Source: Thalassocella blandensis (GTDB lineage: Bacteria > Pseudomonadota > Gammaproteobacteria > Pseudomonadales > Cellvibrionaceae). Taken from it: DNA of 38,980 bases. The stretch spans positions 1 through 38,980 of the forward strand of contig CAMCXE010000009.1 in NCBI GenBank assembly GCA_945882995.1, in the 5' to 3' direction. Under the pieces are notes generated by a model. That model saw only the letters and a program-made list of their open reading frames with translations. It was not told the DNA's origin and did not search any database. Of the stretch, positions 10,429 to 36,747 are shown piece by piece. Position 1 is the stretch's first letter. Every line of letters starts with the position of its first letter. The position numbers and the translations under genes are program-made.

Positions 10429-11628
10429 ATGCGCAACTCAATTTCTAGGGCCCTTCTCATCGTGTTTTGCCTAACCTGCGCTAATCAGGTGAACGCGCAC
10501 GCACGCTGGGCATTAGATGGGCTGGTGAAACCACGCAACAACTCCACGGGCCTGAAAACCGGCCCCTGCGGCGGCATCGCCCGCACCAATACACCCGTGC
10601 AACTGCAAAGCGGGTCTGTGGTGGACGTAAAATTCGAGACGGTTATTTACCACCAAGGCGTGTTCAAAATTTATTTTTCGCCGAGCAACGACCAAAATTT
10701 TGTATTGTTAGCGGATAACATTCCCGATTACGCCGACAAACCTTTTCAAACCTATAAACTTACGCTGCCAAACCAAGAGTGCAACGGCTGCACCCTCCAA
10801 CTCATTCAAACCATGCCCGACCATGGACCCAATAGCCTGTACTACTCCTGTGCGGATATCCAATTGGTGAAGCCTACGATGACGGACATAGTGCCGCCGG
10901 CGGCTGTAACCAACTTAAGCGCTCAACAACAGGATAAGCATTTAAGTTTGAGCTGGGCCAACCCTAGCGCGGACTATTTTAAAACGCTGGTATTACAGGC
11001 CTCTCAACCTGTTCAGGCCACCCCCAATTCAGGCACGGCGTATCAAGTGGGGGATGGCATTGGCAATGCCAAAGTGGTGGCTAATGCCGCAAGTAATCAA
11101 TTTGCATCGACGGATCTGCCCCTTCAACAAACTACGTACTTTGCCGTGATCGCGTACGACGGCGCGCACAACTACGCCACGCCTAAACTTGCCAGCGGAC
11201 AAGTATTGCCAGCGCCGAATATCGCACCACAAATTAGCCTGAGCGCCGAACAAAGCACCGTTATTACTTCGCAAATAAATACCGCAGACGGTCCGGTCGT
11301 AGTTCAAGCCCGCATGACGGATGCCAATACCACAGACACTCACTCTTATGATTGGTCTGCTAAGGATTACCGCCTTGTGGATACAGACAATAACCCATCA
11401 ACCTTCACCTTCAACCCCGAAAATTTGCCGGCGGACACCTACAAAATTGTGGCAACGGTGAAAGATTCGGGTATGCCGCCATTGAGCACGAAGGCCACAC
11501 TCGAGCTGCAATTTAACGAGCCTTTTATACGCGGCGGCGCACTCGACGCATTCTATTGCGCGTTGCTGGCACTGGCGTTGATTTTGGGTGGAGCCAAGAT
11601 GGATCGATATTGCAAAGACTCAAAATAA
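10429..11628 (+). CDS. Secreted polysaccharide monooxygenase-like protein (SCE4755-type) with C-terminal sorting-like tail
   Basis: The 399-residue precursor has a signal peptide (residues 1-23) predicted to be cut at VNA|HARW, leaving His24 as the new N-terminus. An N-terminal His together with a second buried His (H75 in VIYHQGVF) is the copper histidine brace of lytic polysaccharide monooxygenases. GLKTGPCGG (C47), CNGC (C118, C121) and LYYSCADI (C141) fit the SCE4755 family as I know it. A fibronectin-III-like domain (about 155-260) and a PKD/cadherin-like domain (about 265-365) follow. The tail RGGALD, a hydrophobic helix and a short basic end resembles GlyGly-CTERM-type sorting signals. 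I chose the ATG at 10429 for the signal peptide; an upstream ATG at 10357 is in frame. Oxidase activity is inferred, not shown. Confidence 0.75.
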   Translation: MRNSISRALLIVFCLTCANQVNAHARWALDGLVKPRNNSTGLKTGPCGGIARTNTPVQLQSGSVVDVKFETVIYHQGVFKIYFSPSNDQNFVLLADNIPDYADKPFQTYKLTLPNQECNGCTLQLIQTMPDHGPNSLYYSCADIQLVKPTMTDIVPPAAVTNLSAQQQDKHLSLSWANPSADYFKTLVLQASQPVQATPNSGTAYQVGDGIGNAKVVANAASNQFASTDLPLQQTTYFAVIAYDGAHNYATPKLASGQVLPAPNIAPQISLSAEQSTVITSQINTADGPVVVQARMTDANTTDTHSYDWSAKDYRLVDTDNNPSTFTFNPENLPADTYKIVATVKDSGMPPLSTKATLELQFNEPFIRGGALDAFYCALLALALILGGAKMDRYCKDSK

Positions 11629-11746
11629 CCACTGATAAGCGGGGCTAGGCAGCCCTCAACCCTGCCCTGAGCAGCCGCAGAATCTCGCCAGAGCAAACAA
11701 CGGTGGCGGTTGGCGACAATGATTTCGCCTAACTTATATGCCTAGG

Positions 11747-11920
11747 TTCAACCTAGACACCTCAGTTGGGCGCCAAAAAGCTGTGCAATCCATTGGTGTG
11801 ATTAGTGAAAGTTAAATTTGGCGGGCAACCTGGTTGGTTGTTCGCCAAATTTAACTTTTGCTAGGCGCTGCCCGGGGGTTGCGCAGACTTTGGTGATCCA
11901 ACTGAGGTTTCTAGGTTCAA
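11747..11920 (+). repeat. palindromic intergenic element, copy A
   Basis: Terminal inverted repeats of 23 bp with two mismatches (11747-11769 and 11898-11920; core AACCTAG...CCTCAGTTGG) enclose a perfect 16-bp inner stem (11808-11823 with 11843-11858) and a 19-nt loop, GGCAACCTGGTTGGTTGTT. It has no coding capacity. It lies between the convergent ends of the secreted protein and the OmpA-like lipoprotein; the rest of this 332-bp gap holds only the hairpin at 11921-11954. Copy B has the same loop and ends but a different inner stem. Confidence 0.9.
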
Positions 11921-11954
11921 CCCCCATAACAGATGGCTTCGCCTGTTATGGGGG
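11921..11954 (-). terminator. 12-bp hairpin after the OmpA-like gene
   Basis: CCCCCATAACAG (11921-11932) pairs perfectly with CTGTTATGGGGG (11943-11954), and GGCTTCGCC forms a small extra helix in the loop. It begins 6 nt beyond the stop of the minus-strand lipoprotein gene and abuts repeat copy A. The T-run is short, so termination may be partial. Confidence 0.5.
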
Positions 11955-11960
11955 CGCAAT

Positions 11961-12611
11961 CTACTCTAAAGACTCTAGCTCCAGCTCCACTCGGCGATTT
12001 TGCTGACGGCCGGCGTCCGAATCATTGCTGGCAATTGGATAGCGCTCGCCAAACCCTTCCGCGCTGACGCGCCCAGCTGGCACACGCTGATCCACAAGAA
12101 AATATTTCACAGCGCTGGCTCGCTCCTCGCTAAGCCGCTGATTGGTTGCGTCGCTGCCCACTGAGTCAGTGTGGCCTGCAACGTGAACGCGCGTGTCTTT
12201 GAATTCTTTTATGACATCCACCACCGAATCCAACACGCTAAAAAAATCCGCACGAATGTTGGCACTGCCGGTGGCGAAGGTGATGTTGCCCGGCATGATT
12301 AGTTTGATATTTTTACCGTCGCGCTGCACCCGCACACCACTGCCCTGCAACTTCTCACGCAAGACTTTTTCCTGGCGATCCATGTAATAACCCGTGCTGC
12401 CGCCCACAGCGGCGCCAACCGCCGCACCGCGCAGCAAGCCCTTGGAGCGATCCTGTTTACTGGATGTCAAACCACCCAGCACAGCACCAGCCACAGCACC
12501 AATGCCGGCTCCCTTTGCTGTATTACTGGTTTTGCGCTCACCGGTATAAGGGTCGTTGGTGGCGCAAGCTGTCAGTGCTAAGGTCATTAGGGTCACGTAA
12601 ATTATTTTCAT
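11961..12611 (-). CDS. OmpA-family outer-membrane lipoprotein with glycine zipper
   Basis: This 216-residue lipoprotein has a signal sequence with the lipobox LTAC (Cys16 lipidated). Next comes a glycine-zipper segment (GAGIGAVAGAVLGGL, about 34-48, then GAAVGAAVGGSTGYYMD), and then an OmpA C-terminal peptidoglycan-binding domain (about 105-216). Its signatures are VHVAGHTDSVG, NQRLSEERASAV and QQNRRVELEL. It resembles YiaD and should tether the outer membrane to the cell wall by binding diaminopimelate. In Pseudomonas a glycine-zipper lipoprotein gene also lies in the suhB-secF neighbourhood. The cat codon at 12609-12611 encodes ATG, with AGGAC just upstream. It has its own hairpin downstream. 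Confidence 0.9.
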   Translation of the reverse strand: MKIIYVTLMTLALTACATNDPYTGERKTSNTAKGAGIGAVAGAVLGGLTSSKQDRSKGLLRGAAVGAAVGGSTGYYMDRQEKVLREKLQGSGVRVQRDGKNIKLIMPGNITFATGSANIRADFFSVLDSVVDVIKEFKDTRVHVAGHTDSVGSDATNQRLSEERASAVKYFLVDQRVPAGRVSAEGFGERYPIASNDSDAGRQQNRRVELELESLE

Positions 12612-12722
12612 AAAAAGTCCTCGTGGGTTGTAGGTTAATAGGCCACCAGCTCTTTGTAGAACTCGAGACAGTTTGCGCCTCCAGATTCGAATTGCAAATG
12701 CATTTCCCCAAAGCCAGCTGGC

Positions 12723-12888
12723 TTAAACCTAGAAGCCTCAGTTGGGCGCCAAAAAGCTGTGTACTCCACGGGTGTGATTAGTGAAAGTTAAAAATCACGG
12801 GCAACCTGGTTGGTTGTTCGTGATTTTTACTTTTGCTAGGCGCAGCCTGGCGCAGACTTTGGTGATCCAACTGAGGTTTCTAGGTTAA
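12723..12888 (+). repeat. palindromic intergenic element, copy B
   Basis: It has the same ends as copy A (20-bp terminal inverted repeats with one mismatch: 12726-12745 and 12867-12886) and the identical 19-nt loop (12800-12818). The inner stem (12784-12799 with 12819-12833) differs from copy A at five consecutive positions, and all five changes are compensated in the opposite arm; one bulge is present. It occupies most of the 366-bp gap between the divergent OmpA-like gene and queA, ending 90 bp before queA. Nothing else recognisable is in this gap. Confidence 0.9.
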
Positions 12889-12977
12889 ATGCCGTAGGCC
12901 GTCTCGTTGGCCAGAGGAACATGGCACCGCGCCGCCGTTTCCAGTAACCTTGCGCGCCTGTTTTTAAGGGTTGTTCC

Positions 12978-15166
<2,189 letters not shown>

Positions 15167-21699: not shown

Positions 21700-21850
21700 T
21701 TCAACCTGGCAACCTCAGTTGGATCACCCAAGTCTGTGCAGCCCCGTGGCAGCGCCTAGTGAAAGCCCCAGCGTTGCGCAACCTGGGGGAGATTCAACGC
21801 CCAGTTCTAGTTTGAACCACAAGCATTTGCCCAACTGAGGTTTCTAGATT
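21700..21850 (-). repeat. palindromic intergenic element, copy C (reverse orientation)
   Basis: The ends are TTCAACCTGGCAACCTCAGTT at the left and CCAACTGAGGTTTCTAG at the right. The segment after the left end (GGATCACCCAAGTCTGTGC) is the reverse complement of the right part of copies A and B, so this copy is inverted relative to them. The inner stem is CCCCA/TGGGG enclosing GTTGCGCAAC, again a private sequence. It lies in the 496-bp gap upstream of suhB, whose remaining left part (21530-21699) shows only a GAGCAC/GTGCTC hairpin at 21667-21687. Confidence 0.8.
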
Positions 21851-24271: not shown

Positions 24272-24419
24272 TTAAGGGCACCTCCGGAAATTCACTTTTC
24301 GCACCCTCGCTGCGTTATTTTCGTGCGCAGTCGGTCATTTATACCGCATAAACTCCCTCCCTCCGCGCGAAAATGGCTTGCGATCATCGCGAAAATTGAA
24401 TTTCCGGAGGTGCCCTTAA
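24272..24419. mobile_element. 148-bp MITE-like element
   Basis: Inverted repeats of 31 bp matching at 30 positions bound the unit (24272-24302 and 24389-24419, outer sequence TTAAGGGCACCTCCGGAAAT). The central 86 bp carry no open frame. The ends begin TTAA, which fits a 4-bp target duplication around GGGCACCTCC; YTAR-type targets are typical of IS5-group transposons, so mobilisation in trans by such a transposase is plausible. No transposase gene is present in the window. Confidence 0.8.
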
Positions 24420-35743: not shown

Positions 35744-36688
35744 ATGCCTGCACCCCGCCCCTACGTTGGTCGTTTTGCCCCTTCACCTACCGGGTTGCTT
35801 CATCTCGGCTCCTTGACCTGCGCCCTCGCCAGCTACCTAGATGCTCGGCAGCACGGAGGACGCTGGTTGCTGCGCATAGAAGACATAGACCCGCCTCGCG
35901 AGCAGCCAGGCGCTTCAGCAGCGATAATTCGCTGCTTAGCCGCTCATGGGTTGGAATCCGACGGTCCCATTCTGTGGCAAAGTCAGCGTTCTGCGGCCTA
36001 TCACGAAAGCTTAGATTGGCTGGCCGATCGCCAACTTACCTACCCCTGCGATTGCAGCCGCGCCCGCTTGGCAAATCTCCACTCCATTTATGACGGCCAC
36101 TGCCGCCAGCACCCAGCTTCACACCCAGCTGCGCTGCGCTTAAAAACACGGGATTTACCCGCCGCTTTTCAGCACATTAGCAGCAATATTGTGTTTCAAG
36201 ATCGCCACCGAGGCGAACGATTCGAAGATTTAGCCTCCACTGGCGACTTTATTATCCACCGCAAAGACGGCCTTTTTGCCTATCAGCTAGCTGTAGTGGT
36301 AGACGACATCGCCCAAAACATCACCCATGTGGTGCGCGGCAATGACCTTTTGGAGACCACTGCCAGGCAAATCTTTTTGTTCAACCTACTCGGCGCACCC
36401 ACGCCACGATATTGCCACATACCGGTGGTAAGCAATGAACTAGGGCAGAAGCTCAGCAAACAGAACCTGGCCTTACCGCTAAACGAGGCCACGCCTAGCG
36501 CAAACCTCTGGTGTGCTTTGAAAGCTCTGGGGGCGAACCCACCCGCCAACCTACTGAAGGCAAAACCGCGGGCCATACTGGATTGGGGGGAGCAAAATTG
36601 GTCGCCGAGCCAACTGAGTACGGGCAACATGGTGCCAGGTCACACGCTGTCACCGGCTTTAGAAGTATCGGGCGAACAACAATCCTAG
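35744..36688 (+). CDS. gluQRS: Glutamyl-Q tRNA(Asp) synthetase
   Basis: GluQRS attaches glutamate to the queuosine base at position 34 of tRNA-Asp. The 314-residue protein resembles a truncated GluRS: YVGRFAPSPTGLLHLGSL carries the HLGS version of the HIGH motif, the zinc site lies in CDCSRARL and YDGHCR, and KLSKQN is a degenerate KMSKS. It lacks the anticodon-binding domain. It depends on queuosine made by queA and tgt elsewhere in the window. Its TAG stop lies inside the CCTAG terminus of repeat copy G, so the final residues may derive from the element. Confidence 0.95.
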   Translation: MPAPRPYVGRFAPSPTGLLHLGSLTCALASYLDARQHGGRWLLRIEDIDPPREQPGASAAIIRCLAAHGLESDGPILWQSQRSAAYHESLDWLADRQLTYPCDCSRARLANLHSIYDGHCRQHPASHPAALRLKTRDLPAAFQHISSNIVFQDRHRGERFEDLASTGDFIIHRKDGLFAYQLAVVVDDIAQNITHVVRGNDLLETTARQIFLFNLLGAPTPRYCHIPVVSNELGQKLSKQNLALPLNEATPSANLWCALKALGANPPANLLKAKPRAILDWGEQNWSPSQLSTGNMVPGHTLSPALEVSGEQQS

Positions 36689-36747
36689 AAACCGCAGCTG
36701 AATATCCAAAGCCTGCACAATTTGGTGATACTCAACCGAATTTTGGG
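36684..36747 (-). repeat. palindromic intergenic element, copy G (internally deleted, overlaps gluQRS stop)
   Basis: CCTAGAAACCGCAGCTGAAT followed by ATCCAAAGCCTGCAC matches the reverse of the right end of copies A and B at most positions. The opposite end, TTTGGTGATACTCAACC, follows immediately, so the inner hairpin is lost and the unit is a short palindrome. The CCTAG terminus contains the gluQRS stop (36686-36688). It lies between gluQRS and the convergent acyltransferase. Confidence 0.65.

Follow-up and report, generated by a model that had tools for sequence, protein, structure and literature searches.

The window analysed here, a stretch of 38,980 nucleotides from Thalassocella blandensis (contig CAMCXE010000009.1), contains two long palindromes, copies A and B, whose inner stems differ in sequence while their arms remain largely complementary. 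The question raised by this locus is what keeps these arms paired. An earlier note on this DNA had argued that neutral drift of a dead repeat would not preserve pairing, so that either the folded form, as an RNA hairpin or a DNA cruciform, is selected or the arms are rewritten together by a copying mechanism such as template switching.

The palindromic pairing of both copies is real and far beyond chance. Each folds end to end into a single rod, with an RNA minimum free energy of -115.6 kcal/mol for A (z -13.7) and -103.1 kcal/mol for B (z -13.9), and none of 200 shuffles was as good in either case. Seven repeat-end matches with up to three mismatches were found in the window, compared to 0.01 expected. 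A covariance model built only from elements of other genomes scored A with 119 bits and B with 104 bits, and with 55 and 52 bits on the opposite strand. Several details of the earlier description were refined. The spans given there, 11747-11920 and 12723-12888, take in target duplications, and the elements themselves occupy 11752-11915 and 12728-12884 (Table 1). Of five adjacent inner-stem differences described as TTTGG versus AATCA, four are confirmed, the middle T being common to both copies. Each of the four has its counterpart in the 3' arm, but B is not perfectly paired, since its 3' arm is one stem base short (AC versus AAC in A). The identical 19-nt stretch GGCAACCTGGTTGGTTGTT is present in both copies, not as an open loop but as a 7-bp stem, including two G-U pairs, with the 5-nt loop TGGTT. 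In addition to the three copies listed, a lone end-like match with three mismatches and the G variant lies at 36684-36701 with no listed partner and is possibly a remnant.

Table 1. Element copies in the window and their parts, with positions counted from the first letter of the stretch.
Feature	Positions	Strand	Basis
Left 5-bp target duplication of copy A, TTCAA	11747..11751	.	sequence
Copy A, full-length foldback element, 164 bp	11752..11915	+	fold and covariance-model match
Left terminal inverted repeat of A, one mismatch to CCTAGAAACCTCAGTTGG	11752..11769	+	end-pattern match
Variable compensated inner block of A, 5' half, GTTAAATTTGGC	11811..11822	+	alignment/fold
Conserved tip hairpin, GGGCAACC-TGGTT-GGTTGTTC	11823..11843	+	alignment/fold
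Inner block of A, 3' half	11844..11855	+	alignment/fold
Right terminal inverted repeat of A	11898..11915	-	end-pattern match
Right target duplication of copy A, TTCAA	11916..11920	.	sequence
Left target duplication of copy B, TTAAA	12723..12727	.	sequence
Copy B, 157 bp, same element with another inner-block type and small deletions	12728..12884	+	fold and covariance model
Inner block of B, 5' half, GTTAAAAATCAC	12787..12798	+	alignment
Inner block of B, 3' half, one base shorter	12820..12830	+	alignment
Right target duplication of copy B, TTAAA	12885..12889	.	sequence
Third copy, degenerate, 144 bp	21705..21848	-	end match; covariance model 29 bits, E 1e-4

A and B are copies of a 163-bp MITE that is present in about 250 copies in the genome. 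In the 3.96-Mb draft, the right-end pattern with up to three mismatches was matched 253 times compared to 4 control matches, and the 18-bp end with up to one mismatch 371 times compared to none in the control. The terminal repeats are 18 bp long and read CCTAGAAACC[T/G]CAGTTGG. From the approximately 250 matches, 160 elements were extracted and about 90 were left unextracted; 119 of the 160 are 163-164 bp long. Identical 5-bp flanks were found in 80 of 157 elements, compared to a mean of 12.6 and a maximum of 20 after shuffling, and flanks agreeing at four or more of the five bases in 117. At flank lengths of 3, 4, 6, 7 and 8, only 0-3 of 157 were identical, and the duplicated target has a length of exactly 5 bp and the consensus NTNAN. 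This combination of inverted terminal repeats, duplications of fixed length and a short, geneless build in many copies assigns the element to the MITEs. Reading frames of at least 100 codons are spared by 19 of the 20 insertions with enough flank, while random nearby positions would interrupt such frames in 265 of 400 cases. Some own-genome copies sit only a few bases from the end of a contig (contigs C16, C49, C175 and others of the own genome, G000). The repeat probably breaks the assembly and may hide a partner insertion sequence (IS). Another own copy (L084:181-379) carries tandem TTTTGCC units in its 3' arm, likely a slippage product in the hairpin.

The ends were also searched for in other genomes. 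With one mismatch allowed, they were detected in 12 of 390 genomes of the order, the own genome included, compared to 2 of 390 for the reversed control; five of the 12 have a single match, and some of these may be due to chance. Among 84,980 named species, the ends were found in at least 90 stretches, and the carriers among the matches listed include Thiobacillus, Sulfuricella, Rhodoferax, Polaromonas, Pseudothauera, Gallionella and Halochromatium. Judged by these sequence matches, MITE-type ends occur in many Beta- and Gammaproteobacteria. In 41 of 80 named loci taken from the matches listed, there is a short element whose ends pair and whose target duplication agrees at four or more of five bases. 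These elements range from 163 to 349 bp, with three at 163 bp and 24 at 228-240 bp; the latter, from 15 genome records, are referred to as the 234-type. A covariance model of the 163-type, built from eight elements of other genomes, scored the 234-type at no more than 20 bits where it was found at all in 20 chosen loci. Due to these poor scores, the interiors of the two types are regarded as without recognisable kinship despite their common ends. A search for plasmid relatives of copy A found none.

The ends also point to a candidate mover. In another genome of the order (G084, locus L168), a 516-aa IS1380-related transposase is bounded by CCTAAAAACCGCAGTTAG and CCTAAATTCAGCAGTTAA, and the pair of ends is flanked by TTCAA. 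The Polaromonas plasmid CP087967.1 encodes a further IS1380-related transposase; here the ends are CCTATTTTCGGCAGTTAG and CCTAGAAACGGCAGTTAG, and the flanking duplication is TTAAA. Downstream of this IS, the plasmid also has a 234-bp element whose ends are of the same kind. Cultured carriers include Thiobacillus denitrificans and Polaromonas sp. P1-6, the latter with IS and element as neighbours. Both transposases score above the cut-off of PF13701 (53.5 and 86.5 bits versus 34.7), but below that of the NCBIfam IS1380 model NF033539 (113.5 and 155.5 versus 180 bits), and for this reason they are labelled IS1380-related. The MITE resembles an IS of the IS1380 type in its ends of the form CCTA...GCAGTTA(G/A) and in its 5-bp duplications TTCAA and TTAAA, which in the IS accompany a PF13701 DDE transposase. 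It differs in being geneless and in that, compared over 18 positions, the IS ends deviate from the MITE end by two mismatches at one end and six at the other in both IS. Because of these six mismatches, the link between MITE and IS is considered likely but short of proof. An IS1380-related DDE transposase is the probable mover of the MITE, acting in trans. The ends of ISEcp1 presumably belong in the same comparison of IS1380-type ends. In the own genome, a draft of 321 contigs, neither a PF13701 transposase at an E-value of 0.001 nor an IS1634-type transposase was found; PF13701 was detected in four of eight other genomes of the order searched, in three of them above the cut-off.

IS1634 was considered as a parent and rejected. 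The IS1634-type loci of G084 have no element ends at up to five mismatches. In a Sterolibacterium MAG, an IS1634-type IS, with its gene between the ends of the repeat, lies within a hairpin element (L219:1957-3649), and this segment has inverted repeats of its own inside the hairpin, which makes it a nested insertion.

For the analysis of stem variation, the 160 own elements were reduced to 140 rows by dropping 18 outside 155-170 bp and two readings of copy L104, and to 139 rows by removing a misoriented one (L308+80); the consensus fold was used as structure. Compensated changes account for 229 cells in the 12-bp inner block (pairs 60-71), compared to 19 in the other 51 Watson-Crick pairs. 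The block occurs in 16 distinct, perfectly paired sequences, found in 73 of the 139 copies and in ten cases in one copy only, while in 66 copies one or more block bases are unpaired or missing. By our reading, the block types form a ladder of single-pair steps leading from A to B, with one step seen only as a one-arm change. There is thus no need to assume that several bases were rewritten together. The ends and the tip are conserved in sequence, which, together with a paired but sequence-free stem of near-fixed length, suggests recognition at the ends and the tip.

The one-sided changes describe how resident copies behave after insertion. Per pair-cell, they amount to 6.4 % in the inner block and 5.9 % in the outer stem. 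For the middle stem (pairs 28-49) the share is 11.4 %; it is 4.9 % for pairs 52-59 and 5.3 % for pairs 72-79. Among these changes, transitions giving G-U and A-C combinations are balanced in the block (21:25) and the outer stem (59:52), and lean towards G-U in pairs 52-59 (17:7) and 72-79 (20:7). The ratio is 83:30 in the middle stem, where about 42 cells come from a single subfamily at pair 42, and this subfamily is also largely responsible for the overall ratio of 200:121. Since a G-U surplus exists outside the outer stem and the block, the case for drift is cleanest for these two regions. There, one-sided changes are equally common and show no preference for G-U, and for this reason we read the resident copies as drifting, with selection on pairing weak or absent. 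Mismatches also recur, with A/G at pair 70 in 11 copies and G/G at pair 69 in seven, which indicates that pairing is not strictly required; they may have arisen by multiplication or by repeated recombination. In view of the similar rates in block and outer stem, the 66 imperfect copies and the recurring mismatches, selection on the individual copies is not supported. The earlier note had named unpaired inner-stem changes as frequent as paired ones as an observation against its reading; this is what is seen when variant types are counted (47 one-sided versus 18 compensated in the block), but not when cells are counted (107 versus 229).

Template switching could keep the arms complementary without any selection, as the nascent strand would fold back, be primed by the loop-proximal stem and copy one arm into the other, a mechanism described in the accessible part of PMC8794818. 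Several observations are in line with it. Outside the block, 19 cells carry private compensated changes, more than in shuffles (5.75, maximum 12), a surplus that selection at the level of source copies does not predict. The wobbles of pairs 55 and 56 were corrected jointly in 22 copies, on the left in 18 and on the right in four, compared to two copies with one change per side and nine single corrections, although inheritance could contribute to these counts. The loop-proximal pairs 72-79 contain only two compensated cells at Watson-Crick pairs, as priming from this region predicts. Furthermore, the outer arms of one own copy (L104:213-375) are mutually complementary, as arm copying would leave them, in place of the unequal sequences GGGCGCC and GGTGATCC of other copies; on its sequence, this copy is a candidate product of arm copying. 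On the other hand, the wobbles of pairs 73 and 74 persist in 128 of 139 copies, and the block has no shortage of one-sided changes.

A comparison between genomes extends the evidence beyond the resident copies. For the 163-type, 26 of 70 pairs in 16 elements changed on both sides, compared to 13.3 after shuffling and with none of 500 shuffles as high, and 90.2 % of the cells pair compared to at most 48.9 % with the partner slid; the structure used was folded from one of the 16 elements tested. For the 234-type, with its 24 elements from 15 genome records, 34 of 66 pairs changed on both sides compared to 22.1 (0 of 500), and 96.4 % of the cells pair compared to at most 39.3 %, with a structure derived from the same alignment; for both types, the shuffles ignore relatedness. 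The statistical test of covariation proposed in the earlier note thus came out positive, as the stems of both types covary between genomes beyond shuffled and slid controls.

The fold is also strand-specific. The same strand is the more stable one in all 139 own copies, with a mean difference of 30 kcal/mol, and the own consensus reaches -113.4 kcal/mol on the plus strand compared to -77.4 kcal/mol on the minus strand. The same is true for all 14 related rows of the 163-type, which represent 13 distinct sequences and include three oriented by alignment, and for 24 of 24 elements of the 234-type, with differences of 1 to 36 kcal/mol across rows; rows within a type have a common ancestry and are not independent. 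Three further elements (L151, L155 and L161) were folded but are unoriented and not counted, as are named elements of other lengths. In 300 simulated stems with 11 random one-sided transitions, none reached the difference of -36 kcal/mol seen in the consensus (lowest -35.2, sd 10.9). A different foldback in the window (24272-24419, TTAAGGGCACCTCCGGAAATT..., 148 bp, with 31-bp arms that are 97 % complementary) was tested as well and is nearly symmetric, with -78.7 versus -85.9 kcal/mol.

The kind of pairs found differs between the types. In the main helix of the 234-type, 107 G-U stand against four A-C over every column, and 63 against nine at Watson-Crick-majority pairs, or 51 against nine when collapsed by genome. 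A one-strand fold in which G-U is tolerated and A-C is rare is thus seen in the 234-type, and is not seen in the own block and outer stem with their balanced ratios. The 163-type cells comprise 839 Watson-Crick, 164 G-U, 28 A-C and 81 other combinations, and 131 of the 164 G-U cells fall on 11 pairs fixed mostly as G-U. At its Watson-Crick-majority pairs the ratio is 32:28, so that continuing selection is not visible there. The concentration of G-U at these 11 fixed pairs indicates that the strand signal is old and common to the type, while the sampled copies appear drift-like, as they do in the own genome.

Strand-blind processes such as selection on a cruciform, template switching or drift should not yield this asymmetry. 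We conclude that pairing of one strand is likely to have been preserved in the proliferating lineage, most simply as RNA. The data fit long-term selection on a one-strand hairpin, of RNA or single-stranded DNA, rather than on a cruciform or template switching alone. Template switching is strand-blind and makes perfect palindromes, yet G-U is common and A-C rare in the 234-type, and both types have one strand that folds more stably. Due to this asymmetry, it was demoted as the main cause and is an unlikely explanation on the whole, even if it may have been a minor contributor to the joint rewriting of arms.

Still less probable is a mutational origin of the asymmetry, by which one strand would be exposed as single-stranded DNA, for example during transposition, and deamination of C to T would convert G-C into G-T. 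No RNA function would be needed for one strand to gain G-U and the other A-C. However, singletons in the own copies are unbiased (C>T 3, G>A 9, A>G 8, T>C 7), the third states, for example at columns 37/120 and 48/109 (C-G, U-G, U-A), need the opposite change as well, and the covariation is left unexplained. Recombination between copies, with whole central hairpins or single arms swapped among subfamilies so that compensated blocks would spread as units and mismatched combinations arise, is very improbable as the cause, because it reshuffles types, as in the existing chimeras L028 and L089 with an A-like left and a B-like right arm, but cannot create 16 paired block sequences, ten of them in single copies. 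Hardly any weight is given to a DNA cruciform or a palindrome kept symmetric for a DNA-binding protein, which would agree with the conserved ends and tip and with a minus strand that still folds well, but not with the preference for one strand in both types or the tolerance of G-U and avoidance of A-C in the 234-type; the cruciform option of the earlier note is therefore disfavoured.

The explanation we favour, and regard as probable with clear reservations, is a MITE moved in trans by an IS1380-related element, whose one-strand hairpin would be preserved in the multiplying lineage while resident copies decay. The element would be non-autonomous, and an IS1380-related DDE transposase would act on its common type of ends, mobilise it and duplicate 5 bp of target of the form NTNAN. 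Between the ends, a long rod hairpin is predicted that is far more stable on one strand, and the multiplying lineage would keep this strand paired by compensatory changes with G-U allowed. The selected molecule would be a single strand, more likely RNA of the plus strand than single-stranded DNA, and the fold would presumably matter at or shortly after transposition. Once inserted, copies would decay, and pairing would be under weak selection or none. The subfamilies of the inner block, which differ by single-pair steps, would have been inherited from different source copies, and A and B would descend from two of them. Inheritance from different sources combined with a block free in sequence would make this the place where subfamilies differ. 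A first guess is that a folded transcript makes the insertion tolerable or aids mobilisation. As a tentative and rather doubtful extension, the spread of the element may depend on a folded, strand-specific hairpin of RNA or single-stranded DNA with a role in mobilisation or insertion tolerance, such an interior having apparently been recruited more than once, as the 163-bp and 234-bp types, between the same IS1380-like ends. Concerning the selection of the folded form proposed in the earlier note, pairing kept across subfamilies and covariation between genomes support foldability maintained at some level, but selection on individual copies is not supported. The favoured explanation is weakened by the six-mismatch ends of the IS and by the missing G-U bias at the Watson-Crick-majority pairs of the 163-type.

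The genomic context adds further points against this explanation, since no promoter-like sites were found at 11600-13000 and the copies show no preferred orientation. Relative to the neighbouring genes, 8 elements are co-directional and 11 opposite among 45 placed, a count that omits 16 elements with distant neighbours, and a cis-acting mRNA hairpin was rejected on this basis; a hint in a smaller first sample of 21 elements (five co-directional, two opposite) was lost in the larger set. An intrinsic terminator was also discarded, as the inner hairpin on the plus strand is terminator-like in A and B, but the region total of three is close to the shuffled mean of 2.2. Placement between convergent genes was observed for 17 of 45 copies compared to 9 of 47 gaps in two small, partly overlapping baselines, one from window gaps with the elements not removed and one from fetched loci. 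In the window, A and B flank the gene of an OmpA/glycine-zipper protein (11961-12611, minus strand), and queA and tgt follow B (12978-15166, plus strand), all assigned with Pfam.

Hairpin MITEs are usually taken as foldback by-products of inverted ends. The natural variants and relatives described here separate two stages, namely the drift of resident copies and the one-strand pairing that the multiplying lineage has kept. If the fold is needed, a DDE-type transposition system would here depend on RNA or single-stranded DNA, a requirement that can be tested directly with the paired, mismatched and chimeric stems occurring in nature.

In line with the earlier note, no named family with these ends was found in what was searched. 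At gathering scores, Rfam 15 reports one tRNA only in the window and no family for the element, and seven loci with elements gave no match at E-values up to 1. The MITE end sequence was absent from the literature searched, and nothing in it, papers on IS1380 MITEs included, was recognised as this element. Judging by the accessible parts of the respective papers, hairpin MITEs and template switching in hairpin evolution are already well known (PMC2229807, PMC3049150, PMC8794818). ERIC, Correia/NEMIS, RUP and YPAL, with about 100-200 bp and transcripts predicted as long stem-loops, resemble the element in size, predicted stem-loop and, in most cases, terminal repeats, as far as the available text of PMC2229807 describes them. 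According to the same text, ERIC, Correia/NEMIS and RUP have 5'TA3' termini, YPAL not being so listed, in contrast to the CCTAG/CTAGG ends and 5-bp NTNAN duplications of the MITE; the absence of 5'TA3' termini places it outside ERIC, Correia/NEMIS and RUP. The pneumococcal BOX and SPRITE repeats are likewise interspersed, with RNA secondary structure and over-representation between convergent genes, but differ in host, ends and build, based on the accessible part of PMC3049150. GTAG/CGTC-tagged REP sequences are given as 20-40 bp in the part of PMC3733652 available, compared to 163 bp for the MITE. Template-switch evolution of RNA hairpins, in the portion of PMC8794818 considered, would explain multi-base compensated changes but, by our reading, does not predict strand asymmetry.

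The hairpin of the 234-type has a feature of its own, as it contains two conserved, mostly non-canonical strands, AAGGCGCGACGACGC and AAGGAGGAGCAACGC, that are opposed to each other (alignment columns 54-69 and 88-103). The GGA repeats in AAGGAGGAGCAACGC presumably resemble a Shine-Dalgarno or CsrA-type site.
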